Assembly: GCF_003628555.1 (NCBI RefSeq)
Contig: NZ_CP021731.1
Location: forward strand, 1,054,001-1,118,000
DNA: 64,000 nucleotides
Source: Azoarcus sp. DN11
GTDB taxonomy: Bacteria; Pseudomonadota; Gammaproteobacteria; Burkholderiales; Rhodocyclaceae
Direction: 5' to 3'
The translations under genes were made by a program, and so were the position numbers. Below are positions 24,411 to 42,229 of this stretch, in pieces (within the stretch, counting starts at the first letter, position 1; each line of letters begins with the position of its first letter). The notes under the pieces are model-generated. The model was not told the origin of the DNA and did not search any database. It worked only from the letters and a program-made list of their open reading frames with translations.

Positions 24411-24486
24411 GGCCAGGTAGCTCAGTTGGTAGAGCAGCGGATTGAAAATCCGCGTGTCGGCGGTTCGATTCCGTCCCTGGCCACCA
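24411..24486 (+). tRNA. tRNA-Phe (GAA)
   Basis: 76 bases with a complete cloverleaf: acceptor GGCCAGG/CCTGGCC, D arm GCTC/GAGC, anticodon stem GCGGA/TCCGC with loop TTGAAAA (anticodon GAA), TTCGATT T-loop, and an encoded CCA. Its 3' 47 bases are repeated at 31035-31081, so it is the attachment site of the element that follows. Confidence 0.98.
24440..24486 (+). repeat. attL: 47-bp direct repeat in the tRNA-Phe 3' half
   Basis: Runs from the anticodon stem to the CCA end and is identical, base for base, to 31035-31081. The two copies bound the integrated element. Confidence 0.93.
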
Positions 24487-24492
24487 GAATTC

Positions 24493-24528
24493 AAGCCGGT
24501 TCCAGCCTTAGTGCTCGAACCGGCTTTT
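24493..24528 (+). terminator. Element-borne terminator behind tRNA-Phe
   Basis: AAGCCGGTTC pairs perfectly with GAACCGGCTT around a 14-base loop, ending in TTTTCT. It starts 6 bases inside the element, so the element supplies a new terminator for the tRNA transcript. Confidence 0.75.
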
Positions 24529-24555
24529 CTACAAATAAACCCCGCGTTTCTACAA
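24527..24555. repeat. Integrase arm-type sites, left end
   Basis: TTCTACAA occurs at 24527-24534 and 24548-24555, 21 bp apart (two helical turns). The same octamer occurs near the right end at 30923 and 30985. Confidence 0.55.
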
Positions 24556-24558
24556 TTC

Positions 24559-25536
24559 TCACCGCAGCGGCTTCACGCGCTCGCCCTTTCGTGCACGCGT
24601 GTAGTGCTCTGTCATGTCCCGTTTGGTGTGGCCGAGAAGCTTCTGAGCGTGACCGAGGTCGCCCGTGTCGGTCGCAGCCTTAGCCCGAATGTCCCGGAAT
24701 TGGAAGGTCGCGCCGGCTGCTTTCCTGGCTTCGTCGAATCGGTTCCGCAGCATCCAGTAGGTCAGGGGCTGGCCGTTTTCGTCTTGAACGAGCCAAGCGC
24801 CTTTCACCTTTGCCGGGCGACTCGTAATGCGTTCGATGACCGCCGCCAACTCGCCAACGATCTCGATCGCAAGCTTCTTCCCGGTCTTGTTCTGCTTCAC
24901 GTGCAGACTGCCATCCCGGATGTCGGCGCGGGTCAGCTTGAGCACATCCGCGGGGCGCTGCCCGGTGAGCAGTGCCAGGTCCATCGCGTCTTGCAGCGTG
25001 TAGTGACCTTTCGCCCGAACCGCGGCGAACTCATCGTCCTCGACATATCGGTCGCGGCCGGTTTCCTTGTGACCTTTCACGCCGGCGCAGGGGTTCGGGG
25101 CATCCGTGTAGCCCCATTCCCGCGCCTTGTTGAAGACGTGCGACAGCAGGGCCTTTTCCCGGTTGGCGCGCGTCTTCGCCTGCTGGCCGCGAAGATCGAG
25201 GTAAGTGCGCACGTCCTGCGGTCGAATGCTGTCGATCGACACCGATCCGAACACGGCGACCAGCTTTGCGAGTTCGGCCTGGTTGTCCCGCTGGGTCCGG
25301 ATTGCCTTCGTGGGAATGACCTCGCGTTCATATCGCCGGGCGATGATTGCGAAGGTCTTGTCATCGGGATTCGCCGCTTCGCCTTCCAACTCGGCCCAGC
25401 GCAGCCGCGCCTGGTTCAAATCCTTCCCCAGCTTGATCCACTGCCGCGGCACCGTGGAGGTGACGTAGTAGAACGTTTCCCCCTTCCGGTGCATCCGAGG
25501 CGGCAGGTTCAGGTCTCGAGTACGACGACGGCCCAT
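24559..25536 (-). CDS. int: Tyrosine-recombinase phage integrase
   Basis: 325 residues. An N-terminal Arm-binding domain (FYYVTSTVPRQWIKLG) and a SAM-like core-binding domain (about 60-150) precede the catalytic domain. Visible catalytic residues are Arg in LLTGQRPADVL, RDIRAKAA in the box II position (the first His of the usual HxxR is replaced by Arg), LLGHTKRDMTEHYTR with His, and the nucleophilic Tyr. It integrates the element into tRNA-Phe. The ATG at 25536 has GAGGG eight bases upstream; an upstream extension overlaps the DUF4224 gene and was rejected. Confidence 0.93.
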   Translation of the reverse strand: MGRRRTRDLNLPPRMHRKGETFYYVTSTVPRQWIKLGKDLNQARLRWAELEGEAANPDDKTFAIIARRYEREVIPTKAIRTQRDNQAELAKLVAVFGSVSIDSIRPQDVRTYLDLRGQQAKTRANREKALLSHVFNKAREWGYTDAPNPCAGVKGHKETGRDRYVEDDEFAAVRAKGHYTLQDAMDLALLTGQRPADVLKLTRADIRDGSLHVKQNKTGKKLAIEIVGELAAVIERITSRPAKVKGAWLVQDENGQPLTYWMLRNRFDEARKAAGATFQFRDIRAKAATDTGDLGHAQKLLGHTKRDMTEHYTRARKGERVKPLR

Positions 25537-25538
25537 GT

Positions 25539-25769
25539 TCAGCGCCCTCGCAGCGCGGCAAAGTTCGGACGCCCGCCGCCCTGGACGGGCGCCGCCGCGT
25601 CGCCGCCCCCGAGGCGGCTTTTCGCATAGCTGCGGCCAATGACCGGGCGGTTGTTTCGGTTCTGCTCGAACACCCAGCCGCGATCCTTCAGCCAACGGCA
25701 TTGCAGGGCTGGCACCTTGTAGCCGGTCAGCTCGATTACCTCGTCCTTGGAAAGGAACATCGGTTCCAT
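25539..25769 (-). CDS. DUF4224 protein, probable excisionase/regulator
   Basis: 76 residues. MFLSKDEVIELTGYKVPALQCRWL followed by DRGW resembles DUF4224, a small winged-helix-like family encoded next to phage integrases. Its stop lies two bases before the integrase start, so translation is coupled. GGAG nine bases before the ATG supports the start. A role in excision or in helping the integrase is inferred from position. Confidence 0.78.
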   Translation of the reverse strand: MEPMFLSKDEVIELTGYKVPALQCRWLKDRGWVFEQNRNNRPVIGRSYAKSRLGGGDAAAPVQGGGRPNFAALRGR

Positions 25770-25784
25770 TCGAGTGATCTCCGA

Positions 25785-25958
25785 TCAATGCGCGCACTGC
25801 ATGCGCTGGCGAGCTTTCAGCCGGCGCGCCTTGTTCCGCGAGGGGCGAAAACCCGAAACGGTCTTTCGCAGTCTCCCGAGCAGACGGGCGTAGTTGATCG
25901 CGAGAGTAAGATGCTCGGCCGGATACTGAATTGCCGTGACATCGCGAATCGGTTTCAT
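25785..25958 (-). CDS. Small basic hypothetical protein (57 residues)
   Basis: 57 residues, starting MKPIRDVTAIQYPAEHLTL and ending in a Lys/Arg-rich tail (NKARRLKARQRMQCAH). The start codon overlaps the stop of the upstream HTH gene by four bases (ATGA). That overlap is the main reason for accepting it. No family recognised; the basic C-terminus could bind nucleic acid. Confidence 0.6.
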   Translation of the reverse strand: MKPIRDVTAIQYPAEHLTLAINYARLLGRLRKTVSGFRPSRNKARRLKARQRMQCAH

Positions 25959-26692
25959 GCGGTTGCTACCTTGCGTTGCGGCTGGGGGACTGAGTTGGCG
26001 TGGGGAAAGTCCATGATTCGGGCGGTTGCAATACGCCCGAGCAGATCGTTCAGGCGGTCTTGCATTCCGCGCAGCTCGTCTGTAATCCCGTCGGTGAGGT
26101 AGAGCGTTCGGAGGCGCGCATTCTCCGCTTGTGCTTCTTCCAGTTCCTTCCGCAGGCGGTCGGCTTCCCATTTGTGGTTGTCGCGCTCCGCGTAGAGCCG
26201 GGGCAGGGCGTTGAGCTCAGCCGGAAGCAGGGCGAGCCTGCCCACGTCGGGGGAGATCAAGGCGCCGGTTTGGCGGTTGATGAACCATCCGTCCCAGGTT
26301 TCATGCGAGAGCCGAAAGGCCGCGCTTTCCGAGAGAAGGCGAAGGGTCTCGACGGCAGCGAAGGGAACGGCTACCGCATCGGTCTCCCAGGCGGCAACGG
26401 TGCGCGCGCTTACGCGCAGGTAAGTTGCGGCCTGCGCGCGTGTCAATCCGACGACGTGCTCCCGAAGGAAACGGAAGCCGGCGCCAGTTGCCTCGCGTGC
26501 AGGATTCGACGCGATGAGCCAAGCCGGATGCTTGCGGCCGAACACCTGTGTAATGCGATCGACGCCGGCAGCATCATCGATGTCGGGATTCATGCCGTTC
26601 ATGAAATAGGACCAGCGGGAGCGATCTCCTACCGACTGGACAGGCTTTGTGCTCCGCTTGGTCGTGGATGCGGGTTTAGACGTGCGTTTCAT
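25955..26692 (-). CDS. HTH protein, DUF3653-like, phage-type
   Basis: 245 residues. A helix-turn-helix at about residues 78-105 (VGLTRAQAATYLRVSARTVAAWE) is followed by WDGWFINRQTGALISPDVG, which resembles DUF3653 phage proteins. The C-terminal third is a coiled coil (YAERDNHKWEADRLRKELEEAQAENARLR in part). Its start overlaps the replication gene by 17 bases. Probably a DNA-binding regulator or replication helper of the element. The N-terminal 20 residues are Lys/Thr/Ser-rich and disordered. Confidence 0.7.
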   Translation of the reverse strand: MKRTSKPASTTKRSTKPVQSVGDRSRWSYFMNGMNPDIDDAAGVDRITQVFGRKHPAWLIASNPAREATGAGFRFLREHVVGLTRAQAATYLRVSARTVAAWETDAVAVPFAAVETLRLLSESAAFRLSHETWDGWFINRQTGALISPDVGRLALLPAELNALPRLYAERDNHKWEADRLRKELEEAQAENARLRTLYLTDGITDELRGMQDRLNDLLGRIATARIMDFPHANSVPQPQRKVATA

Positions 26693-28550
26693 CGAAATGA
26701 GGTCCCGTAAAAGGTGGACGAGCAGTCAAATCTGATGGGAGCTGCCAGTCGGAATGGCTTCGCCCTGACAAGTCCGGCCAGTGGTGGCCGTGGTTTGATG
26801 GGAAAGGGGCTTCTCGGCGGCCGTCAGGGGCGGGCGGCTGCGTACAGTTATTCAAACGAGTCCAAGGGGTCCGGGCTCGCCGCTTGATTTCCCACTCCCG
26901 GCGCAGCGAGCGGACCAGGCGCCGCGGGTCGGCAGCGAGATAGAGGCCGCAAGGCTTCGGGGGCTGGGGCTCCATGTAGCGGCCCAGTCGGCCGGCGTCT
27001 TCCTTGGCGAGCTTGATGCGGTGGAATTTGCGCGGCGTGGTGACCCCGCCGATTGCTTCGCAGAAGGCGCCGAAGTCGGCACGGTCACCCGCTTCGGTGC
27101 GGCGATGCACAGCCTTGCACGCCTCACGGATCGCCTCGGGCGCTTCGTGCAGGGCCTCGGGAGGTACGCGGCGCGCTTCGCGCCACAGCCCGACCGGCGC
27201 GGCCCGCCATTGCTGGAACTGCCGGATTCCATGCGTAGCTGCCCAGGCCCGGACGCGTTTCGCCGCGGTGGGGGCGTCCTGGCCGTGCTCGGCGTCGTTC
27301 AGTCCGAAGCCATCAACATTCTTGGCGACATACTTTGCGACGTAGCCGACTGCCGTGCCGCGCTCCCAGTCGATCCGTTCGAATTTGCACCGCGCGCTTC
27401 GTGCGCCGCGCTCGTCCGGGGAATCCTGCATCGCGTAGTGAGTAAAGACCGCCTGAAGCTTTTCGGCTGCCGACTCCGGGCAGAAGGCCAGCAGATGCCA
27501 ATGCGGCGTGCCGTCGTGGTGCGGTTCGGCCACGCGTAGGCCGTAATACTCGATGCCGTCGCGATCGAGCTTCGAGCGGATGCGAGCACCGATCTTGCAC
27601 AGATAGGCTTGAGCTTCGCTTGGTGTCGTTCCGTCGAAGGCGGGGTTTCGGTTGCCGCTGGCGTGGTGAATTGCATGCATGCGGCTGGGGCAAGTGAGGG
27701 TAGCGAACAGGGCCACGTCGCAGCGCTTACGGGCTTGCTCTTCCATGCCGCGAACGCGCGTCATCAATTCCGCGCGGCGCTTATCCGGAGAAGCGACGCC
27801 AAGCGCCGACAGATCTTCCAAGGTGAAGACCTCTCCATCGTCATTGATCGCCTCGAATCCGGCGAGGAACGCAGCATTCGCGCGCTGCCGTCGTGTAAAG
27901 CGCTCGAAGCCTGGATCGCTGACATACAGCCCGCGCCGTGCCGAAACTAGGCCCAGCTCGCGCGCCAGCTCTTCGAGATTGCGGCTTGCCGTCGTGCGAA
28001 GTTGCCGAATCCACCATTGATGATCGGTCAGGCGAGCGATCAGGCCTGCCAGGTGATCCGCTTTCGGCGGTTGGGCGCCGAGGTGCCGACAGACCTTCTC
28101 GACCTGCATGCGCATTGCGTCCTGCGATCCTTCCGCAAGCGCTTGCCGCAGTTCGGCCGGTGATAGCCCATTGCGCTCGCACCACTCGCGGCCCGCCGTT
28201 GTCAGCAGCTCCGGCGCGCGGATTGCGGAGAGTTCCGCAAGCAACGTGGCGCAGCGCTTTGCCTTTCGTTCGGCAGCCGCGCCGATGTCGTCTTCTGATG
28301 CGTTGAATGGAATGTCATGCGCGCGATACCGGCCAAGGAAGCCGAGCAGCCACCGGTTTCCGTCTGCCATGTCTTCCGCCTGGCGCGCTCGCAACTCGCG
28401 AAGGACTTCCTTTCTGATGCCCCGTGGAAGGCCGTCTAGTTGTTCCTTTTCCCAGGCGTCTTGCTGCCGTTCGCGGCAGGCCTGTGCCTCAAGGGCATTA
28501 AGCTGCGCCCTCGTAGGCAAGGCTTCGGCCGGAATGTCGTGGAGGTTCAT
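26676..28550 (-). CDS. P2 gpA-like HUH replication endonuclease
   Basis: 624 residues. The metal-binding HUH motif is HWH at residues 350-352 inside HHDGTPHWHLLAF. The two catalytic tyrosines are Y403 and Y407 in VGYVAKYVAKN, the YxxxY arrangement of phage P2 gpA and phiX174 A proteins. The N-terminal half is helical and charged. It should nick an origin and start rolling-circle replication of the excised circle. In P2 the origin lies inside the gpA gene, so the origin here may also be internal. It is shorter than P2 gpA (about 760 residues) but appears intact. Confidence 0.9.
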   Translation of the reverse strand: MNLHDIPAEALPTRAQLNALEAQACRERQQDAWEKEQLDGLPRGIRKEVLRELRARQAEDMADGNRWLLGFLGRYRAHDIPFNASEDDIGAAAERKAKRCATLLAELSAIRAPELLTTAGREWCERNGLSPAELRQALAEGSQDAMRMQVEKVCRHLGAQPPKADHLAGLIARLTDHQWWIRQLRTTASRNLEELARELGLVSARRGLYVSDPGFERFTRRQRANAAFLAGFEAINDDGEVFTLEDLSALGVASPDKRRAELMTRVRGMEEQARKRCDVALFATLTCPSRMHAIHHASGNRNPAFDGTTPSEAQAYLCKIGARIRSKLDRDGIEYYGLRVAEPHHDGTPHWHLLAFCPESAAEKLQAVFTHYAMQDSPDERGARSARCKFERIDWERGTAVGYVAKYVAKNVDGFGLNDAEHGQDAPTAAKRVRAWAATHGIRQFQQWRAAPVGLWREARRVPPEALHEAPEAIREACKAVHRRTEAGDRADFGAFCEAIGGVTTPRKFHRIKLAKEDAGRLGRYMEPQPPKPCGLYLAADPRRLVRSLRREWEIKRRARTPWTRLNNCTQPPAPDGRREAPFPSNHGHHWPDLSGRSHSDWQLPSDLTARPPFTGPHFDETHV

Positions 28551-28562
28551 CGCGGGCCGCGC

Positions 28563-28760
28563 TTAGGCCTCGACGGGAACGCGTTCGAAGCGTTCGCCGT
28601 AGAAGCGTTCAGCCAGCGCGGCGACGTCGGCGGCTGCATGCTCGCAGAACGTGTCCGGCTTCATCACGTCGCCGAACATCAAGAAGGGCATGCCATCGGG
28701 CGACATGCAAACGAAGTCGCCCGATACCACCCCGCGCAGGGTGTAGAGGGTTGCGCACAT
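28563..28760 (-). CDS. Small hypothetical protein (65 residues)
   Basis: 65 residues from ATG 28760, beginning MCATLYTLRGVVSGDFVCM and ending VPVEA. Acidic, with Cys at residues 2, 18 and about 40. It lies 12 bases before the replication gene and 8 bases after a smaller gene, so it is part of the same tight operon. No family recognised. Confidence 0.55.
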   Translation of the reverse strand: MCATLYTLRGVVSGDFVCMSPDGMPFLMFGDVMKPDTFCEHAAADVAALAERFYGERFERVPVEA

Positions 28761-28768
28761 GGCGTGCC

Positions 28769-28912
28769 TCAGCGCGGGACGGGCGTTTGAGTCGGTTTGG
28801 TGTGCTGGCTGAGATAGACCGCAAGGCCAATCAGCACAGCGAGGACGAAGCCGCCGGACTTCGAAGCAACTCCGCACATGGGGAATGCGGACAGAGGAAT
28901 CGGGCCGCTCAT
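28769..28912 (-). CDS. Very small membrane protein (47 residues)
   Basis: Encodes a 47-residue protein: MSGPIPLSAF at the N-terminus, one membrane helix (about 22-36, GFVLAVLIGLAVYL) and a polar tail ending TQTPVPR. GAGGGGGG lies 6 bases upstream of the ATG, and the start overlaps the stop of the Xre gene (ATGA), which argues for real translation. Function unknown; small single-helix proteins in phages and satellites include holin-like and superinfection proteins. Confidence 0.55.
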   Translation of the reverse strand: MSGPIPLSAFPMCGVASKSGGFVLAVLIGLAVYLSQHTKPTQTPVPR

Positions 28913-29565
28913 GCTTCGCCCCCCTCTTCGGACTGCTCCTCGATCAAGCCAGCCCTGACGAAGGACTCGCGGGCTTGCTCAATCATGGCGCCAGCAATGG
29001 TGTTGTCCGCGAGTCCGATGCTATCGGCGTTCAAGCCCACTTCGGGCCACCCAGTTACGGAGCGGAGAAGCAGGTAGTTTGCGGCCAGTAGGCTATAGGC
29101 TTCGCCGATCGCGTGCTGTGTATCCGCCGACAATTCGCCGTCACCAAAGAAACTTTCATTGCGCTGCAACTCGTTGTTGAGCAGCGCCACGAGGCGAATG
29201 TCGTTGCTCTTGATGGCTTCCTTGGTTGCAGCCAGAGCTTCTTTTGATACCGACTCGACCGCGCGGAACATCAAACCGTCATCGGTGTAGCTGCGGATTT
29301 CGGGAACTTCTGTCGTGGTGATCTCGGCTTCGGCGAAGCTGAGTTCCACTTCGTCACCATTGGCCCGGGCTTCTTCGGCCTTGGCCTCGTAGAGGTCGCG
29401 CAGCTTGCGGAGTTGAGCCTTGGTGAGGCGGGTCAGATGCCCATTCTCGAAATCCGAGAGATAGGCGCGGTTGATGCTGAGTGAGGTTGCTACGTCAGCT
29501 TGCGAAAGGCCCAACTCCCGGCGTGCGTCGCGGGACCGGGAAGGGGTGATAGTAGTTTGCTGCAT
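28909..29565 (-). CDS. Xre-family HTH regulator
   Basis: 218 residues. The N-terminal Cro/CI-type helix-turn-helix spans about residues 10-62 (RRELGLSQADVATSLSINRAYLSDFENG). The C-terminal 150 residues are helical and acidic and match no domain I recognise. It precedes the small membrane protein and the replication gene in one operon and could activate or repress them. A palindrome (ATCCGATCGGAT at 29653-29664) and a half site (ATCGGAT at 29576-29582) lie just upstream. Confidence 0.82.
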   Translation of the reverse strand: MQQTTITPSRSRDARRELGLSQADVATSLSINRAYLSDFENGHLTRLTKAQLRKLRDLYEAKAEEARANGDEVELSFAEAEITTTEVPEIRSYTDDGLMFRAVESVSKEALAATKEAIKSNDIRLVALLNNELQRNESFFGDGELSADTQHAIGEAYSLLAANYLLLRSVTGWPEVGLNADSIGLADNTIAGAMIEQARESFVRAGLIEEQSEEGGEA

Positions 29566-29645
29566 ATTTTCTCCAATCGGATACGAAATGTTCCGTAAGG
29601 AGAATACTGAGCCGCATCGCTACTCGCTGTCAATCATTTCTGATA

Positions 29646-29671
29646 AAAAATTATCCGATCGGATGATTTTT
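29646..29671. promoter_or_regulatory. Palindrome between the two Xre genes
   Basis: ATCCGATCGGAT is a perfect 12-bp palindrome flanked by AAAAAT and ATTTTT, so 24 of 26 bases are symmetrical. It sits between the stop of one Xre gene and the start of the next. It is probably an operator; with T-runs on both strands it could also act as a terminator. Confidence 0.55.
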
Positions 29672-29673
29672 CT

Positions 29674-30111
29674 CTACGAGGGCTCTTTTTTTTCTTTTAC
29701 CTGGCCCATCTTGATGCCGTGGGCGAAGTCCCTGTTCGCACTTCGGTTGGGAAGGCGTTCGCGTGCCGTTGCGGTTCCGAGCAATGCCAGGAGCTTCCGT
29801 CCAATGTCTGCATCCTCTTGGAGGTCGGAGTCCCATTCATGTCCCAAGATCAGCCAATTCGGCGAAACGTTAAGGGAATCGGAGAGCAGTCTGAGTTCCC
29901 GAGCGCCCGGCAGCCGGTCCCCCTTTTCGTACCGGTAGAGTGTTGGAACGGAGATGCCTTCTGCTGAAGCGTATTCAAACTTGCTTGTTAGCACCGAGAG
30001 TTCTTCAACACTGAGGTCCAACTCCTTCCGTCGTTGCCGGAGGCGCTCGGCGATGCCGCGCTCGGGCTCCTGTAGAAGGTTGGCGAGTTCCTGCTTTTCG
30101 TCGTTGTTCAT
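29674..30111 (-). CDS. Xre-family repressor (CI-like, no peptidase domain)
   Basis: 145 residues. The helix-turn-helix spans about residues 22-82 (IAERLRQRRKELDLSVEEL...VPTLYRYEKGDRLPG...LSDSLNVSPNWLI). There is no S24 LexA-type self-cleavage domain, so induction by RecA-driven cleavage is not expected. It is a candidate repressor of the element. It has its own upstream gap of 70 bases facing the toxin gene. Confidence 0.83.
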   Translation of the reverse strand: MNNDEKQELANLLQEPERGIAERLRQRRKELDLSVEELSVLTSKFEYASAEGISVPTLYRYEKGDRLPGARELRLLSDSLNVSPNWLILGHEWDSDLQEDADIGRKLLALLGTATARERLPNRSANRDFAHGIKMGQVKEKKEPS

Positions 30112-30181
30112 GCAAATGTCACTGATATACAGCGGTTGTTCAACTTTCGAAAACCCGCATGCTTCCTTGGTCTTGCAGCGG

Positions 30182-30589
30182 TTATCCGCCCACTACGCCA
30201 ACCCCTGAAATGCTAGCGGCCGCTCTCATTGGTTCATCTTTTGTCGCAATCGGAAGTTGAAGCCGCAAGGCCAATTCCAAGTAGGCGGCGTCGTAGCTGC
30301 TCAAGTTGTACCGCAAGGCGAGTGCCAACAATTCAGACGGCCCCGGCGTGCCGGTATCGATCTCGATAGGCAGGCTGCAAATCTGCTCGATGATCTGTTG
30401 CGCGTGGGCGGCGACTAGTCGCTGCTTTCGGCACGCTGTCCGCAGGACATTGGCGAACTCCAGTTGCCACAGCGCCGGAACGATTGCCCTGTCGTCTTCG
30501 AGTAGCGCGCTGATCGCTTCAGTGTAGGGCGTCGCTTGGTCTTCCAGGAACCAGCCTGTGACGACCGAGTTATCGAGGATGAACGGCAT
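30182..30589 (-). CDS. PIN-domain ribonuclease toxin (VapC-like)
   Basis: 135 residues of the PIN fold. Acidic residues expected to bind metal are D6 (FILDNSVVTGWF), E44 (QLEFANVLR) and D98-D99 region (LSSYDAAYLELA), with a final acidic residue in ATKDEPM. VapC-type toxins cleave RNA, often initiator or other tRNAs. The start codon abuts the stop of the antitoxin gene. The pair lies at the attR end of the element and probably stabilises it. Confidence 0.88.
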   Translation of the reverse strand: MPFILDNSVVTGWFLEDQATPYTEAISALLEDDRAIVPALWQLEFANVLRTACRKQRLVAAHAQQIIEQICSLPIEIDTGTPGPSELLALALRYNLSSYDAAYLELALRLQLPIATKDEPMRAAASISGVGVVGG

Positions 30590-30843
30590 CAGTCGCGGCC
30601 GTCCTCGATCGCCTCACGAACGTCCATGCCAAGGGTGACGCCCTGGCGAAGAGCGCGCAGCCTCGCGAAGGTGCCCGCGACTCGCTCACGTTGGGTCTGC
30701 AAGGTTGCCGAAGCAGGTTCGGCAGCGACGATCCGGGCGACCGGCCGGCCACGCCGGGTGATGGTAACTTGCTCCCCGTGCTCGACGGCCGCGAGCAGTT
30801 CGGAGAACTTGGTCTTCGCCTCGTAGATGGGAACGGTCTTCAT
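30589..30843 (-). CDS. Phd/YefM-type antitoxin
   Basis: 84 residues starting MKTVPIYEAKTKFSELLAAVE, followed by GEQVTITRRGRPVARIV: the Phd/YefM DNA-binding fold. The C-terminal tail (about 50-84) should wrap the PIN toxin. Its stop overlaps the toxin start by one base. It represses its own operon in related systems. Confidence 0.9.
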   Translation of the reverse strand: MKTVPIYEAKTKFSELLAAVEHGEQVTITRRGRPVARIVAAEPASATLQTQRERVAGTFARLRALRQGVTLGMDVREAIEDGRD

Positions 30844-30920
30844 GGTCTGGCGCCTGAACGAGTTGGTTGGCCAGATTATAGGCGGATGCGCCGTGCCGCG
30901 TGCTGACAGGCGCTCGCCAT

Positions 30921-30994
30921 GCTTCTACAATCCGCTTCCGCGTCCATGAATGGCGAGGGTTGTAGCCCGACAGAAAGCCGGGGTTTGTAGAAGC
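30921..30994. repeat. Integrase arm-type sites, right end
   Basis: GCTTCTACAA (30921-30930) and its inverse TTGTAGAAGC (30985-30994) form a 10-bp inverted repeat and contain the octamer TTCTACAA also found twice at the left end. Confidence 0.55.
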
Positions 30995-31034
30995 ATTTTC
31001 CCGTAAACCGCTGATATTTGGCGACATGCAGATA

Positions 31035-31081
31035 GATTGAAAATCCGCGTGTCGGCGGTTCGATTCCGTCCCTGGCCACCA
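31035..31081 (+). repeat. attR: 47-bp copy of the tRNA-Phe 3' half
   Basis: Identical to 24440-24486. It lacks the tRNA 5' half and so is not a functional tRNA gene. It marks the right end of the element. Confidence 0.93.
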
Positions 31082-31088
31082 ATATTCA

Positions 31089-31118
31089 AACCCCAACCAC
31101 TCTCGGTTGGGGTTTTTT
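31089..31118 (+). terminator. Displaced tRNA-Phe terminator
   Basis: CCCCAACC pairs with GGTTGGGG (plus AA/TT), with a six-base loop and TTTTTT. It lies 8 bases after attR, where the tRNA terminator would be in an empty site. Confidence 0.85.
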
Positions 31119-31410
31119 CTTATCTGCTCCCGCCAGACCCGCGAACACGCGCGAAACGCTGAGTAGGTTTGCGGACTTCGCCAGTCTGGCTGGCTACCCA
31201 TCTGTGGCCACATAGCGCTCTCTCCGGGCCATTTCTCTCCCTTTCCTCTCGGCCAAAAAACCGCCCGAAGTCCGCAGGCGTCACGCCATAGGTCCATGTA
31301 AATCAACAGGTTGCGCGTTAATTGATCAATCGGTTGTTTTTTGGCATTGGTAAGCAATCGGTGATTTCGTCTTTGGCTGGCACGTTCAGGCAATCATCTG
31401 TCGTTTGCGG
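31119..31410. other. Gene-free stretch right of attR
   Basis: No gene supported on either strand. Short AT-rich segments near 31290-31350 could hold a promoter for the DUF6088 gene. Confidence 0.4.
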
Positions 31411-31442
31411 TTTGTCAGAAGTAAATATACACTTCTGACAAA
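31411..31442. promoter_or_regulatory. 12-bp inverted repeat before the DUF6088 gene
   Basis: TTTGTCAGAAGT and ACTTCTGACAAA, a perfect 12-bp inverted repeat with an 8-base AT-rich spacer, 12 bases before the ATG. AbiEi-type proteins are known to repress themselves by binding inverted repeats, so this is a likely operator. Confidence 0.7.
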
Positions 31443-31454
31443 CGGAGTCCGACC

Positions 31455-32069
31455 ATGAGCCATCTTGCTGAAACGATCTTGTCCGCTGCGCAAGCCCTGC
31501 CCGAGGGTGGCTTGCTGTCGGCCAAAGAGTTCCTGCATCTGGCCTCCAGAGCTGCGGTGGATCAGACCCTCACCCGTTTGACGCGCGAAGGCAAGCTGAT
31601 GCGCGTTGGACGCGGCGCCTACGTTGCACCGGTGGTCAGCCGCTTTGGGACACGCCCTCCCTCGACCGAAGCCGTGGTCAAGGCCATTGAGTCGGCCAGC
31701 GGCGAGGTGATCGTTGCCAACGGAGCCACTGAAGCCAACGCACTTGGTTTGACCACCCAGGTGCCCACCCGTGAGGTATTCCTGACCTCGGGGCGCTCAC
31801 GCAAATTACAGCTCGGCAACCGAACCGTCGAACTCAAGCATGGCAATCGGTGGCAGCTGGTGCTGGGTGCGCGTCCGGCTGGCATGGCGATCCGTGCCCT
31901 TTCCTGGTTAGGGCCTGAGCAAGCATCCTCGGCACTGAAAGTGCTCCAGACCAAACTACCCCCGGCAGAATGGGCTGCCATGCGCTCTGCCCGAGCCGTC
32001 CTGCCCAGCTGGATGGCGCGTGCAGTAAGCGAAGTCACTGATGGGTTTTTGGTCGACTCATCAACGTAG
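31455..32069 (+). CDS. DUF6088/AbiEi-like HTH protein, toxin partner absent
   Basis: 204 residues. The N-terminal winged helix spans about residues 8-60 (AQALPEGGLLSAKEFLHLASRAAVDQTL...RLTREGKLMRVGRGAYVAP in part). The rest resembles the AbiEi antitoxin family of type IV toxin-antitoxin systems. These normally precede an AbiEii nucleotidyltransferase toxin, but none follows here. The frame stays open for 19 codons past the TAG stop, so the stop may be a recent nonsense change or the partner may have been lost. The inverted repeat before the start codon fits autoregulation. Confidence 0.72.
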   Translation: MSHLAETILSAAQALPEGGLLSAKEFLHLASRAAVDQTLTRLTREGKLMRVGRGAYVAPVVSRFGTRPPSTEAVVKAIESASGEVIVANGATEANALGLTTQVPTREVFLTSGRSRKLQLGNRTVELKHGNRWQLVLGARPAGMAIRALSWLGPEQASSALKVLQTKLPPAEWAAMRSARAVLPSWMARAVSEVTDGFLVDSST

Positions 32070-32125
32070 CAAAGCTACGGAAACTTGGAAGTCGTTGACC
32101 TGGACGAGAAGGACTTGTCCTGACG

Positions 32126-32137
32126 ACGTCCGGACGT
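32126..32137. promoter_or_regulatory. Operator-like palindrome of the DUF1778-GNAT operon
   Basis: ACGTCCGGACGT is a perfect 12-bp palindrome directly before a TATACAAT -10-like box, 36 bases before the antitoxin gene. It is a likely site of the antitoxin or toxin-antitoxin complex. Confidence 0.55.
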
Positions 32138-32173
32138 ATACAATAACGACATGAATAACTTGGAGGGCAAGTC

Positions 32174-32452
32174 ATGAGCGCTGCCAATCTCTCAAAAACC
32201 GAACGCATCGACGTTCGTGCAAGCACGCTGATCAAGCAGTTGTTGCAGGATGCTGCACGTGCCAGCCACAAGAATGTCAGCGAGTTTCTGCTTGATGCAG
32301 GGGTGACGGCAGCCGCGCAGACGCTGGCGGATCGTCGCCAGTTCGTGCTCGACGAGACGCAGTGGCAGGCGTTCCAGGAAGCGCTGGATCGGCCGGTGCA
32401 AAGCAAGCCGCGCCTGAAGAAGTTGTTGCGTGAGCCCGGGGTGCTGGGTTGA
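32174..32452 (+). CDS. DUF1778 antitoxin (TacA-like)
   Basis: 92 residues. A ribbon-helix-helix N-terminus (SKTERIDVRASTLIKQLLQDAA) is followed by a C-terminal helix (FVLDETQWQAFQEALDRPVQ) that neutralises the toxin. This is the DUF1778 pattern. Its stop overlaps the toxin's TTG start by 3 bases. GGAGGGCAAG precedes the ATG. Confidence 0.92.
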   Translation: MSAANLSKTERIDVRASTLIKQLLQDAARASHKNVSEFLLDAGVTAAAQTLADRRQFVLDETQWQAFQEALDRPVQSKPRLKKLLREPGVLG

Positions 32453-32952
32453 GCGATGGCTACTCACCCGTTCGCAAGCTGCTTGCGACGGATCAGGTCG
32501 ATGCTTTTGACTGCGGCCAGGCTGCGCTGAACCAGTTCCTGCAGCGCTACGCGCTCGTCAACCAGAAGGCCAACAGCGCGCAGACCTACGTCTGCTGCCA
32601 GAGCGAGGTGGTGGTCGGCTTCTACAGCCTCGCCGTCGGCAGCGTCGATCCGGAGGCGGCGCCGTCAAGAGTGATTAAGGGGCTCGCGCGTCACCCGGTG
32701 CCGGTCATGATCCTCGCCCGGCTCGCGGTAGACAAGGCGCATCATCGCCAAGGCCTAGGCCAGGCCTTACTCAAGGATGCTCTGCTGCGCACCGCACAGG
32801 CCGCCGACATCGCCGGCATTCGTTGCCTGCTGGTCCATGCTAAGGACGATGCGGCACGGCAGTGGTACGAATCCTGGGAATTCGAGCCCAGCCCGACCGA
32901 TCCGTACCATCTGTTCCTGATGCTCAAGGATCTCAAGAATTTGCTGAGCTGA
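32449..32952 (+). CDS. GNAT acetyltransferase toxin (TacT-like)
   Basis: 167 residues, with a TTG start at 32449 overlapping the antitoxin stop. The GNAT acetyl-CoA loop is LARLAVDKAHHRQGLGQALL (RxxGxG form, about residues 88-107). The C-terminal YESWEFEPSPTDPYHLFLML carries the conserved Tyr/Phe region. TacT-type toxins acetylate the amino acid on charged tRNA and stop translation. The pair is intact and next to an IS21 element. Confidence 0.92.
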   Translation: MSDGYSPVRKLLATDQVDAFDCGQAALNQFLQRYALVNQKANSAQTYVCCQSEVVVGFYSLAVGSVDPEAAPSRVIKGLARHPVPVMILARLAVDKAHHRQGLGQALLKDALLRTAQAADIAGIRCLLVHAKDDAARQWYESWEFEPSPTDPYHLFLMLKDLKNLLS

Positions 32953-33078
32953 TCCCAATCAGCGCCCGCTGCTCTGTCCGCGCGCGTTGAATTTTGACCC
33001 CCCGTGTGCACCGAATTCTGACCCCGGGGGTTTAGCCGTTCATCATTGATTGGCTGTATTGAAGTGTAGTCGTATCGA

Positions 33079-33133
33079 CCGAGGGGGAGGAAGCGGCGAA
33101 GGGCGTAGCCCGCAGCCGCTTCCTCCCCCTCGG
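33079..33133. repeat. Two-tier hairpin behind istB
   Basis: A 19-bp perfect stem (CCGAGGGGGAGGAAGCGGC and its complement) encloses GAA-GGGC-GTA-GCCC-GCA, a second small stem. It starts two bases after the istB stop on the minus strand. A shorter hairpin of the same design lies at 37221-37250. Confidence 0.75.
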
Positions 33134-33134
33134 C

Positions 33135-33956
33135 TCAGAATGGCGCGTCCGGCTCCGCGGTCACATCCAGGGACTCGACGGGCCGCGTCGCCCGGCTCGC
33201 CTCGCGCGCCCGGACGCGCGCCTTGGCCGTCTGACTGCTTTGCTGGAAACGGAAGGATTCGTTGCCCGTTTCCACGATGTGGCAGTGGTGCGTGAGACGG
33301 TCGAGGAGCGCAGTCGTCATCTTCGCGTCGCCGAACACGGAGGGCCATTCGGCAAAGGTCAGGTTCGTCGTGATGATCACGCTGGTGCGCTCGTAGAGCT
33401 TGGAGATCAGGTGGAAGAGCAAGGCGCCGCCGGCCTGGCTGAAGGGCAGATAGCCCAGCTCGTCGAGGATCACGAGGTCGACGTGCATCAGCGCGTGCGC
33501 GAGCCGCCCCTGTTTGCCGGCGGCCTTCTCCAGTTCCAGACTGTTGGCGAGCTCGACGGTGGAGAAGAAGCGCACCCGCTTGCCGTGCTCGGTGATCGCC
33601 TTCACACCCAAGGCGGTCGCGAGATGCGTCTTGCCGGTCCCGGTTCCGCCGATGAACACGACGTTGGCGGCGGCGTCGGTGAAGGCCGCGGTGGCGAGTT
33701 CATCGATCAATTTTGCATCGACTTTCGACTTGTCGAAGTCGAAGCCGGCCAGATCGCGGTGCATGGGGAAACGCGCCGCCCCCATCTGATAGCGGATCGA
33801 ACGCACATGGCGGTCGGTGACTTCAGCCTCGAGCAGACACTGCATGAGCCAGCCGGCACTCTGGATGCCGACGCCGCCTTCCGCGAGCAATTCCTCGTAA
33901 CGCTGGGCCATGCCGTGCAACCGCAGCGATTTCAGTTCGGCGACGATCTCACGCAT
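33135..33956 (-). CDS. istB: IS21 helper ATPase IstB
   Basis: 273 residues of the DnaC-like AAA+ family. Walker A is [11 protein letters not shown] (about residue 103), Walker [13 protein letters not shown], and sensor I is in VIITTNLTF. It binds DNA and directs IstA to the target. The start at 33956 ([20 protein letters not shown]) overlaps the istA stop by 8 bases, as usual in IS21. Confidence 0.94.
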
Positions 33957-35442
33957 GATCGTTCTCCGCGTGCAGACGGTCGTAGCGGCCGGCGTCGGCA
34001 AGCGGTGCCTCGGTCACCGCGAGTGCCGTCTCGAGGGGGGCCGGTGGGGGTGCCTGGCGCAGGCGGGCGAGCACATTCTTGACGTGCTCGGCGCTGGGCG
34101 AGCCGGATTCGAGGATCACTTCGACCGCCACCAGCACGTTCTCCAGGCCATGCCGGGGGACGTGCGCCAGAATGTCGGCCATCAGGCGGTCGCCGCCCGG
34201 GCGTTTGACGAGCAGCGCCCGCAGTTGCTGCAGCGGCGCCGGCAAGCCCTCGAAGGGTGCTCCGTTGCGCAACGCGCCCGGCTTGCGTTCGAGCAGCGGC
34301 AGGTAGTGCTGCCAGTCGTAGATGACCTGGCCACGCTCGAAGCTACGCGCATGGGTGGCGACGAGACCGTCCTCGGCATGGATCTCGATCCGCTCGGGGT
34401 ACAGCCGCAGGCTCACCTTCTGGTTGGCGAAGGCGCACGGGACCGAGTAGCGATTGCGCTCGTTCGTCACGAGACTGGTACTGGACACCGGTACGATCGC
34501 CTCCACGTAGCCATCGAAGCTCGGCACCATCGGCATCAAGGCATCGCGCTCAAGCGTGAGGGCGTCGGCGATGGTGAGGTGCTCGGCGTCCGGGTACGCC
34601 AGTTCCGACCACAGCGCCTGGCAGCGCACCTCAAGCCAGGCGTTCAGTTCGGTGAAACTGCCGAAGCGCCGTTGTAGCGCCTCCTGCCACAGGCGCCGCC
34701 GGCTGTCCTGCACGTTCTTCTCGACGACCCCTTTCTCCCAGCCGCTGGCAACGTTGCAGAAGTCCGGATCGAACAGGTAGTGCGCCGCCATCGCCGCGAA
34801 GCGCGTATTGACGATGCGCCGCTTGCCCACGCCAACCTTGTCGACGGCGGTCTTCATGTTGTCGTAGATGCCACGCCGGGGAATGCCGCCGAACACCCGG
34901 AACGCACGCGTGTGCGCATCGAACAGCATCTCATGGCTCTGCGTCGGGTAGGCCGCGAGCATGAAGGCGCGGCTCGCACAGAGCTTCGTATGGGCGAGCA
35001 GCACCTTGCGATGGAAGCCGCCGATCACCAGCGATTCCTCGCTCCAGTCAAACTGGAAGGCCTCGCCGAATTCGAATTTGAGCGGGATGAAGCTCGATTT
35101 CGCAGGCTTCCCACCGGCCTCGCGCCAGCGTCGCACGTACTCGCTCACCCGCGAGTAGCTGCCCGTGAAGCCCAACTCCTTCAACTGCCGAAACAGCACC
35201 AGCGCCGTGCGCCGCTCCCGCTTCGCCCGTCGGGCGTCCGCCTCGAGCCACTGCACGAGCCGCGTCTCGAAGGGCGCCAGTACCGTCTCCCGCGCCGTTC
35301 GCCGGTACTTCGGTTCGGCTCCCTCGCCAGCCCTCAGCCATTGCCGCACGGTGTTGCGTGCCAGCCCCGTGCGCCGGCAGATCTCCTTGATCGACAGACC
35401 GTCGCGAAAGTGCAACCGCCGAATCTTGCCCAGCATGTTCAT
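33949..35442 (-). CDS. istA: IS21 transposase IstA
   Basis: 497 residues. The N-terminal helix-turn-helix is [22 protein letters not shown]. The DDE integrase core starts near residue 115 with FQFDWSEE and includes [11 protein letters not shown] with the second Asp and the Glu in [10 protein letters not shown]. The ATG at 35442 has GAGGAG nine bases upstream; an ATG three codons earlier touches that ribosome site. The frame is intact. Confidence 0.93.
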
Positions 35443-35691
35443 GGTGATCATCTCCTCGAACCCTGCTCAAACATCGAGCAGGCAGGTTAATCACCAGGGT
35501 CAATTTTCAGCGCGCACAACCCGCGAAAGGGGGTCAATTTTCAATGCGTAGCAACACAGCATCACAAGCACATGAAGAGCACCAACATGCTCGAACGGCT
35601 CAACGAATGAAATGGACTCCCCCTGCACCTGGGGCATCGGTGTGCCAGATTGGGATTGCGAAAGTCTCAATCACGGTGAGGAGGAGTCGAA

Positions 35692-36714
35692 ATGAACGTT
35701 ACCACTGTCGGTATCGACCTGGCGAAGAATGTATTCAGTGTGCATGGGGTCGGGAGGGATGGCAAGGTGCTGCTCAGGCGAAGTGTCGGACGGGCCGATC
35801 TGCTGCCGATGTTCGCGCAGATGCCGCCGTGCCTGATCGGTATGGAAGCGTGTTCGGGGGCGCATCATTTCGCACGCGAGCTGCGCCGGCTCGGCCACGA
35901 CGCGCGGATCATGGCCCCGCGCTTTGTCGCCCCGTACCGTAAGAGCGGGAAGAACGACGGCAACGACGCCGAGGCGATCTGCGAAGCGGTCGCGCGGCCA
36001 AACATGCGCTTCGTCGCGGTGAAATCGGTCGAGCAGCAGGCCATCTTGGCGCTGCATCGCGTGCGCAAGGAAGTGTCCGACCAGCGCACGGCGCTCATCA
36101 ACCAGCTGCGCGGAATGCTGTGCGAATTCGGCATGGTGTTGCCGCGCGGCCGCTACAGTTTCCGCCACAAACTGCCGCCAGTGCTTGAAGACACCGGCAA
36201 CGGCATCCCCGAGCTCGCGCGCCGCCTGTTCCGCGAGGTCAATGAACGCATTGGCGCGCTCGATGCGCAAATTCTCGCCTACGACCGCGAGATTGAAGCA
36301 TTGGCCCGCCACAGCGAAGCGGCGCAGCGCCTAATGGAAATGCCCGGCGTTGGATCGATCACCGCCACCGCGATCGTCGCGAGCGTCGCCGACATGAAGG
36401 TCTTCAAGAGCGGGCGCGAATTCGCCGCCTGGCTCGGTTTGGTCCCGCGTCAATATTCGACCGGCGGCAAGGTGCGCCTGGGGCGCATCACCAAACAGGG
36501 CGACGTCTATCTACGAACGCTGCTGATCCACGGCACCCGCGCGGTGCTCGCAGCACTGGGTACCAAAAATGACCGGCTGAGCCTTTGGATCCGCTTGCTG
36601 ATCGAACGGCGCGGCTACCGCAAGGCCACTGTTGCGCTGGCCGCCAAACATGCACGCATGATCTGGGCGATCCCCGCCAAGGGCGACGCGTATCGGCGCC
36701 CGGCCGCTGTGTAG
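35692..36714 (+). CDS. IS110/IS1111-family transposase (DEDD)
   Basis: 340 residues. The N-terminal RuvC-like DEDD domain has D9 in GIDLAKN, Glu in IGMEACSGAH, and the Asp pair in KNDGNDAEAICEA. The C-terminal transposase_20 domain has the serine-containing stretch PGVGSITATAIVASV...AAWLGLVPRQYSTGGKVRLG in separate segments. GGTGAGGAGGAG gives a strong ribosome site. IS110-family transposases work with a structured non-coding bridge RNA from the element's own ends. The frame is intact. Confidence 0.95.
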   Translation: MNVTTVGIDLAKNVFSVHGVGRDGKVLLRRSVGRADLLPMFAQMPPCLIGMEACSGAHHFARELRRLGHDARIMAPRFVAPYRKSGKNDGNDAEAICEAVARPNMRFVAVKSVEQQAILALHRVRKEVSDQRTALINQLRGMLCEFGMVLPRGRYSFRHKLPPVLEDTGNGIPELARRLFREVNERIGALDAQILAYDREIEALARHSEAAQRLMEMPGVGSITATAIVASVADMKVFKSGREFAAWLGLVPRQYSTGGKVRLGRITKQGDVYLRTLLIHGTRAVLAALGTKNDRLSLWIRLLIERRGYRKATVALAAKHARMIWAIPAKGDAYRRPAAV

Positions 36715-37011
36715 TCTGCAAGGAAGAAAGAAGCGTCTCACTCCCTCACGCTGCGAGGACATTTCGTTGATGCGATGACGGTTCAAACCGACGCGGGCGA
36801 CCCTGGTTAACTCCAAGGCGGCAAAGCCAGACCGGCTAACGAATGAGGGCCCCGCGCGGCGCATTGTCATCAGGGCCAGAGCGCATGTCGCTCACCAACA
36901 GGCCGCATGTAGAGCTGCAGTTTGTCCTTCACCGGATCGACGAAACCCCATGAGCGCGAGATCGGAGGAGTCGGTATTGAATGACGGCCTAGAAAAAGCC
37001 CCTTGAAAATC
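36715..37011 (+). ncRNA. IS1111 right-end non-coding region, candidate bridge/seek RNA
   Basis: 297 bases without a gene between the transposase stop and the right inverted repeat. In IS1111-type elements the target-guiding RNA is encoded downstream of the transposase. Short inverted segments are present, but I did not derive a full fold or the guide loops. This is placed by analogy. Confidence 0.45.
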
Positions 37012-37220
37012 GGGGGAGTCCATGTAGAGGAGATCAAGCGGCGCACCCACGTCGTGCGCATCTTCCCCAATACCGATTCGTGCCTGCGCCTGATCCGCGC
37101 GCTGTGCGTCGAAACGCACGAGAGCTGGCTCGAGGACAACCGCTATCTGAACATGACTCTGCTCGCCCAGCAGAAGAAGGAGGCCCTGCGGCTGGCCGCG
37201 TGAGGCCGCACCCGCTTTTA

Positions 37221-37250
37221 GCGCCGCTTCGGGCTACGCCCTCCGCGGCG
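37221..37250. repeat. Two-tier hairpin behind the IS256 remnant
   Basis: GCGCCGC-TTC-GGGC-TAC-GCCC-TCC-GCGGCGC: an outer stem, a 3/3 internal bubble and a GGGC/GCCC inner stem. The inner part equals, on the other strand, that of the hairpin at 33079-33133. Confidence 0.65.
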
Positions 37251-37546
37251 CCGAAAGCGAAATGACATCAACCAAGCCGTGCTCAACCCAAATTGCACAA
37301 CTTGACGCACACAACTTCATGCGGACGCCCAAGGTCCATGCCTCGGAACTACGGGCGCCTGTTGAAATGTGAAATTTGCTCCCAAGTCTTGTGCATCAAA
37401 GGCTTGTTGAACCAAGCTGGTTTTGCGGTAGGATGGCAAACGGCCAAAGTTTTCGCATCGGCACGTAAGGGCAGACATAATCTGTTTTACGTACGTTCAT
37501 GCTGCTGTGGGTGGCGGGCGAGTCTCCCACCACCAAGGGATTTTCA

Positions 37547-42069: not shown

Positions 42070-42229
42070 CGCATGGGAAAAAGTGAGGCAGTCAGCGGGC
42101 CGCCGGATGCCGGCGCGTATCCGTTTGCGTTGCGATATCGGCAACAGAATTGACTGATTCCGCGCAATATAGGGTCGATTCCTGCGGTGCTATAATCCGC
42201 GAGATCAAGCCTCCCATTTGCGATCGCGC

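Follow-up and report, generated by a model that had tools for sequence, protein, structure and literature searches.

In a 64,000-nucleotide stretch of the Azoarcus sp. DN11 genome (positions 1,054,001-1,118,000 of its single 4.96-Mb contig, NZ_CP021731.1; hereafter the window), a 6.6-kb element occupies window positions 24440-31081, inserted at a tRNA-Phe gene and flanked by 47-bp repeats. It looks intact, belongs to a recurrent family and has a rolling-circle replicon of phage type. The explanation that we favour, with some reserve, is that it would spread as a satellite packaged by a helper phage. Judged from the sequence, it has its integration site, integrase, excisionase, initiator with catalytic residues, origin motif and repressors. 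Related bacteria carry the same small set of genes, and the element therefore looks like a real mobile element. We call the family type A and, from gene content and order, recognize it as a recurrent family of virion-less integrative elements of Rhodocyclaceae and relatives. An earlier sequence-only reading of this DNA had proposed a satellite candidate at 25539-29565. Its observation was right, but the interval was too narrow, omitting the integrase (24559-25536), the CI-type repressor (29674-30111), the PIN/Phd pair (30182-30843) and both attachment (att) sites.

Bounds and gene content of the element

All genes of the element lie on the minus strand. From the right end they encode Phd/YefM, PIN, a CI/RstR-type repressor, a 218-aa (amino acid) helix-turn-helix (HTH) regulator, 47-aa and 65-aa proteins, gpA, a DUF3653/VC1465-like protein, a 57-aa basic protein, a DUF4224/excisionase-type protein and the integrase. 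The features are as follows.

24411-24486, plus strand: tRNA-Phe(GAA), the integration site (ARAGORN)
24440-24486, plus strand: left att copy, the last 47 bases of tRNA-Phe, identical to 31035-31081
24559-25536, minus strand: tyrosine integrase (PF00589, E=3.5e-16; PHROG 1 integrase, E=1.7e-46)
25539-25769, minus strand: excisionase-type protein (DUF4224), 76 aa (DUF4224, E=7e-15; PHROG 4764, E=2e-20)
25785-25958, minus strand: small basic protein, 57 aa, kept in several relatives; no PHROG match
25955-26692, minus strand: DUF3653 / VC1465(XafT)-family-like protein, 245 aa (NF040522; DUF3653 sub-threshold)
26676-28550, minus strand: gpA-type HUH replication initiator, 624 aa (Pfam Phage_GPA, E=3.8e-81; PHROG 91)
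26844-26867, minus strand: putative rolling-circle origin, 24 nt, within gpA (two mismatches from the motif of the family)
28563-28760, minus strand: small protein, 65 aa, resembling one in locus L037 (50% over 64 aa)
28769-28912, minus strand: 47-aa protein with one hydrophobic stretch (by eye); homologues in relatives
28909-29565, minus strand: 218-aa HTH regulator, its C-terminal part separate and helical (Pfam; predicted model)
29674-30111, minus strand: CI/RstR-type repressor, 145 aa (HTH_3, E=5.4e-10; PHROG repressors)
30182-30589, minus strand: PIN-domain protein, likely toxin, cargo (PF01850, E=7.7e-9)
30589-30843, minus strand: Phd/YefM antitoxin, cargo (PF02604, E=1.4e-13)
31035-31081, plus strand: right att copy (repeat comparison; junction missing in nine same-genus loci)

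The att repeats extend to 58-bp copies that are 95% alike. Their 29-nt core occurs twice in the whole window, once in each att copy, with 0 occurrences expected by chance. A search with the left flank found a match in 17 of 17 genomes of the genus, our own included, and nine of the best loci from the 16 relatives (L233-L241) hold the exact core. About 1.5 kb past the tRNA is visible in each of these nine, and element DNA aligns there in none. The tRNA-Phe is joined to window position 37530 in L233 and to 42110, just before a hemA-like gene, in L234, L235, L237 and L238; the window sequence picks up again at 42108 in L236 and at 42176 in L241, and the DNA after the tRNA in L239 and L240 is mostly not in the window. 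Among the seven loci that lack the exact core, L246 carries a diverged tRNA copy, after which the sequence continues at window position 42096; in the other six the insertion site was not within view. The 11 other same-genus genomes in our family sample gave no match to gpA. The tract absent from the closest relative is 24487-37529 (~13 kb), so that ~6.4 kb beyond the element is also extra DNA, which we did not count as element. A second copy of the tRNA-Phe 3' end lies ~39 kb downstream of the tRNA in the L239 genome (G288:C1:3636436-3676177), a hint that another, larger island occupies this site there.

The sequence-only reading had named a tyrosine integrase and Cro/CI-like regulators; the integrase has a Pfam match, and two HTH regulators are encoded. 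It had also reported no capsid, terminase or conjugation gene; in agreement, Pfam, PHROGs and NCBIfam scans of the element proteins found no structural or virion, terminase, packaging or conjugation family. Specifically, there are no P2-type capsid, terminase or portal genes, no Zot/pI-type ATPase or coat genes, and no match to the double jelly-roll capsid and packaging ATPase of the tailless prophage L068. AlpA and the DUF3987/DUF5906 primase are not among the Pfam matches of the element. Several assignments (DUF3653, VC1465, DicA and RstR) fall below the curated cut-offs of their models. The 245-aa protein matches NF040522, 'VC1465 family Xer recombination activation factor', at E=1.6e-15 and 57.1 bits against a cut-off of 70, and Pfam DUF3653 at 17.8 bits, below the cut-off of 22.4. 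We take VC1465 to be XafT of the TLC satellite. No match to the 245-aa protein was found among 50,697 phage records. The repressor matches the RstR family (NF041951) at E=9.1e-7, below the model cut-off. For the 65-aa protein the start codon was picked by eye (the longest frame is 104 aa). The 47-aa protein has homologues in L032 and L034, and a wider search added L033, L035, L037, L075 and L277. A predicted model of the 218-aa regulator (pLDDT 83, pTM 0.53) had no fold match at E <= 0.001 in two libraries, and the best rows were HTH parts.

The type A family

Of 297 genomes from the bacterial family, 23, our own among them, encode a protein resembling gpA (E <= 1e-10). Apart from our own genome, 19 of these (all but G006, G012 and G183) supplied the 20 loci that we read. 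Seven loci (L031, L032, L033, L034, L035, L037 and L039) show in large part the gene order of the window, which with the window itself puts type A in at least 8 of the 297 genomes. The best 80 gpA loci in named genomes added L072 (Zoogloea) and L075 (Azonexus); L070, L071 and L103 in that set are contigs of L031, L034 and L039. We also searched with an alignment of the DUF3653 protein (A2), whose L032 row is a resolvase and not a homologue. Among 399 genomes of the order it matched 16, and the sole strong match outside the family, in G362 (E=1.9e-60), belongs to a complete element (L277); in the class, 369 genomes yielded 4 with a match, a weak one in three of them. The window layout, with some module swaps, was found in ten further loci, giving a type A total of 11.

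Direct repeats overlapping a tRNA gene bound eight of the 11 elements, with 6.6-7.9 kb between the copies. The tRNA is Phe in the window and L072, Ser in L031, Glu in L033 (19 bp only), Lys in L034, and Met in L035, L039 and L277. In L032, L037 and L075 no repeat was resolved; tRNA-Phe was considered as the att site of L032 and rejected, as its second copy was not found. The recombinase is replaced by a serine recombinase in L033 and by a distant tyrosine integrase in L031. A resolvase stands at the place of the DUF3653 protein in L032, L072 has no DUF3653 match, and in some loci no match to the excisionase or to a small protein was detected. The repressor end also carries different cargo: PIN and Phd in the window, L033 and L037, SocA/Panacea in L032 and L035, ParE in L034 and L072, DUF3800 in L031, and a 272-aa protein without a Pfam match in L039.

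The gpA initiator and a candidate origin

The sequence-only reading had pointed to HWH at residues 350-352 and to Y403/Y407. These residues are present in the 624-aa gpA-type protein and invariant in eight aligned initiators, the other seven being 38-40% identical to the window gpA (the alignment lacks the first Met of the window protein, so its residue numbers are one lower). The protein matches PHROG 91, 'nicking at origin of replication', at E=7.3e-151. A search of solved structures gave a single match (E=0.094), which is not relevant.

A 24-nt stretch at the gpA 3' end differs little or not at all among type A elements. Of the 24 13-mers common to at least five of the 11 elements, 14 come from this stretch and its edge, and the remaining ten lie, as read from their positions, in the gpA coding sequence. 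The copy in the window has two mismatches, while chance would give 0 matches at up to 3. When as many as 6 mismatches are allowed, the motif is found in 184 of 188 loci scanned (missing from L082, L133, L134 and L207), which are not independent since they include seven contigs present twice and several near-identical ones. P2 and the Peduoviridae phage Acica carry it at 3 mismatches, the filamentous phage fs2 at 1, and the tailless Vibrio phage L068 at 6. Set against 142 gpA genes, the motif sits within the gene and in its reading frame in 108 cases, within it in another frame in 9, across the stop codon in 13 and downstream in 8, and is missing in 4. Its conservation follows the DNA and not only the protein. 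Kept whether it falls in the gpA frame, in another frame or beyond the stop codon, the motif is the likely rolling-circle origin, common to P2-like, tailless and filamentous phages. The P2 copy presumably lies at the known P2 nick site. The 24-nt putative origin at the gpA 3' end is new here. Among the matches listed, no description of gpA-type satellites or of the type A family was found in open-access titles or abstracts.

In a tree of 142 initiators (L277 was left out, and Acica, L231, is labelled unclassified), eight of ten type A sequences form one clade (support 0.874), whose nearest neighbour is gpA of the P2-like prophage L086 (0.86); L037 and L039 pair elsewhere (0.99). The neighbours are a mixture of P2-like, tailless-phage-like and unclassified loci, and support is weak at some deep nodes. 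The replicon also occurs in other small elements. Fourteen of the best 80 named-genome loci, mostly in Gammaproteobacteria, have an integrase, an AlpA-like HTH gene and gpA between tRNA-overlapping repeats; one integrase and one AlpA-like protein from them were profiled. A PADLOC scan of nine of their cargo proteins gave three clear matches (type IIG restriction in L118, SIR2-type in L084, a type II methyltransferase in L105), five without a match, and a weak Cas10b match in L078, where Pfam reads GGDEF-EAL. The large cargo of L084 is a SIR2/TPR protein. Seven further small elements have gpA first and then the integrase; five measure 6.2-6.6 kb between repeats and one (L142) 9.3 kb. The seventh, a metagenome-assembled contig with gpA and integrase (L120:1-6501), has a 140-bp terminal repeat, which suggests a circle, and is probably a complete circle of ~6.36 kb. 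In L074 (Massilia frigida), repeats of 74-92 bp lie ~11.4-11.7 kb apart around the gpA gene, as if two element copies stood in tandem. The record L051 (NZ_CP072999.1), a 9.1-kb circular Klebsiella plasmid, consists of a P2-like early region that includes CI, CII, Fil and gpA; its annotation lists no virion gene, and it has the origin motif at 1 mismatch.

A wider reading, which we regard as rather doubtful, is that the replicon of gpA and the 24-nt origin serves as a common currency of several virion-less lineages (type A; the integrase-AlpA-gpA elements, some with restriction or defence genes; the gpA-integrase elements near 6.3 kb) and of tailed, tailless and filamentous phages. If so, a phage initiator could fire a satellite origin and the reverse, and satellites could exploit phages of three unrelated particle types or act as origin decoys against them.

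Comparison with known systems and mode of spread

Type A shares with Peduoviridae (P2, HP1-like, Acica) a gpA-type initiator (31% over 71% of the query for P2, 38% for Acica), the origin motif at 3 mismatches, an integrase and a repressor, whereas it lacks capsid, terminase and tail genes and measures 6.6 kb against 31-37 kb. Corticovirus-like tailless prophages likewise have a gpA-type initiator and a repressor with a toxin gene at one end, with an excisionase in L068 and the origin motif at 0-6 mismatches in L068, L073, L092, L116 and L144, but they carry a packaging ATPase and capsid genes, neither of which occurs in type A. The filamentous fs2 and Vibrio inovirus-like loci share the initiator and origin; unlike them, type A has no Zot/pI, coat or secretin gene and has its own integrase. 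With the TLC satellite it presumably shares a VC1465-like protein. The sequence-only reading had P2-type initiation replacing the primase and helicase usual in satellites; the P2-type HUH replicon stands, but the contrast was too broad. RS1 and TLC, satellites of filamentous phages, use rolling-circle initiators.

Rolling-circle replication is reported for PM2 P12 (PMC1950889). Like type A, PICMI are small, with few genes, an integrase and no capsid-remodelling genes; they are described with AlpA, a DUF3987/DUF5906 primase and a fis site, and their authors infer a rolling-circle mode (PMC10803314). Type A has instead an HUH initiator and tRNA sites. P4-like satellites and PLE resemble it in integration, an own replicon and cargo. 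Their replicons differ from the HUH initiator of type A, being RepA_N in PLE and primase plus helicase activities in P4 and SaPI (PMC7145576). The cos core is common to P4 and P2, and in P2-like phages the cos site is flanked by gpA and gpQ (PMC9122126). If type A elements are satellites, a P2-type rolling-circle initiator would join the replicons of tailed-phage satellites so described (P4, SaPI, PICMI, PLE).

Satellite status is plausible. The traits matched by sequence are integration with an own integrase, own replication functions and the absence of a complete virion gene set. The sequence-only reading thus holds in describing an intact-looking integrating element of a recurrent family with a P2-type HUH replicon and no recognized virion genes, but not in implying P2 as helper. 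We rejected that implication because initiators of the same family, with the same origin, also occur in filamentous and tailless phages, and gpA alone does not point to P2. As a satellite, the element would be kept silent by the CI-type repressor until induction lifts repression. The integrase and excisionase would then release it as a circle, gpA would nick the 24-nt site, and the circle would be copied by rolling circle. Control of excision or of copy number may fall to the 218-aa regulator and the XafT-like protein, and the PIN/Phd pair may stabilize the element. Its DNA would be packaged by a resident or infecting helper phage.

Several results weigh against helper packaging. Among 20 genomes searched, Zot was found in five and P2 capsid in five; among the eight type A genomes each was found in one (Zot in G116, with two matches; P2 capsid in G199), and the Azoarcus genome had neither. 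The sequence-only reading had suggested looking for cos/pac-like sequence shared with P2-like prophages of the host. Exact matches of the L032 element to the two G116 Zot loci, and of the L039 element to the DNA around the G199 capsid gene, were within the range of shuffles (longest 14-16 nt, shuffles up to 17). A PF09018 search of nine genomes was uninformative, since its controls gave no match; we believe that PF09018 models the PRD1-type and not the PM2-type capsid. Type A accounts for none of the best 80 IMG/VR gpA loci, which hold no homologue of the 218-aa regulator, the 47-aa protein or the DUF3653 protein, and an integrase related to that of the window occurs in only two IMG/VR contigs (44%). 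Metagenomic and genomic contigs with the 218-aa regulator do cluster at element length: in 23 of 78 rows the longest contig measures 6.6-8.6 kb, against 7 of 120 for the chromosomal control PrmC (best 120 of 7960 matches; Fisher p=8e-6), in a range chosen after the data were seen, with rows that are not independent and our own row left out. The contigs of unit length could be circles, or they could result from breaks of the assembly at att. The window PrmC is 97% identical to a protein of Aromatoleum toluvorans, which makes Aromatoleum the probable host genus.

A serious rival to helper packaging, and one that we consider distinctly less probable, is conjugative mobilization. Here a plasmid-like integrative element with the same excision and replication would move by a conjugative apparatus in trans, or by natural transformation, with gpA as relaxase or a small origin of transfer (oriT) and without phage particles. 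HUH initiators can be used for mobilization, and the element fits in having no packaging gene or recognized packaging signal and no identified helper phage. However, Pfam and NCBIfam found no relaxase or conjugation family above the curated cut-off (oriT was not searched for), and packaging by a helper is favoured because the identifiable parts, the toxin-antitoxin pair aside, have phage-type relatives. Within the satellite explanation, the helper might be a filamentous phage that extrudes single strands supplied by the rolling circle, a sub-case that we judge improbable. The gpA-type initiators of fs2 and two Vibrio inovirus-like loci with the motif at 1 mismatch, the VC1465-like protein, the RstR-like repressor and the element size all fit it; the single Zot-bearing genome among eight, whose element shares no DNA with the phage above shuffles, and the presence of the same replicon in P2-like and tailless phages do not.

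A P2-like prophage that lost its virion genes would also combine these gpA, repressor and integrase types, and the neighbour of the type A clade in the initiator tree is itself P2-like. We rejected this origin as very improbable. A larger prophage in relatives, which the sequence-only reading had named as the finding that would overturn a satellite, was looked for and not found; the same small bounded unit is present in eleven loci, the window included, with repeats in eight, the catalytic residues are kept in all eight aligned initiators, and the Azoarcus genome has no P2 capsid. The helper-packaged satellite is easy to test, given a bounded element, ten relatives and a 24-nt origin, and the shared origin makes cross-action between initiators of unrelated phages and satellites testable.

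Just right of the element, a DUF6088 / AbiEi-like protein is encoded at 31455-32069 (Pfam E=2.4e-25). By eye, the 13-kb tract absent from the closest relative also holds a DUF1778-like and GNAT pair (32174-32952), IS21-like istB/istA (33135-35451) and an IS110-like transposase (35692-36714).

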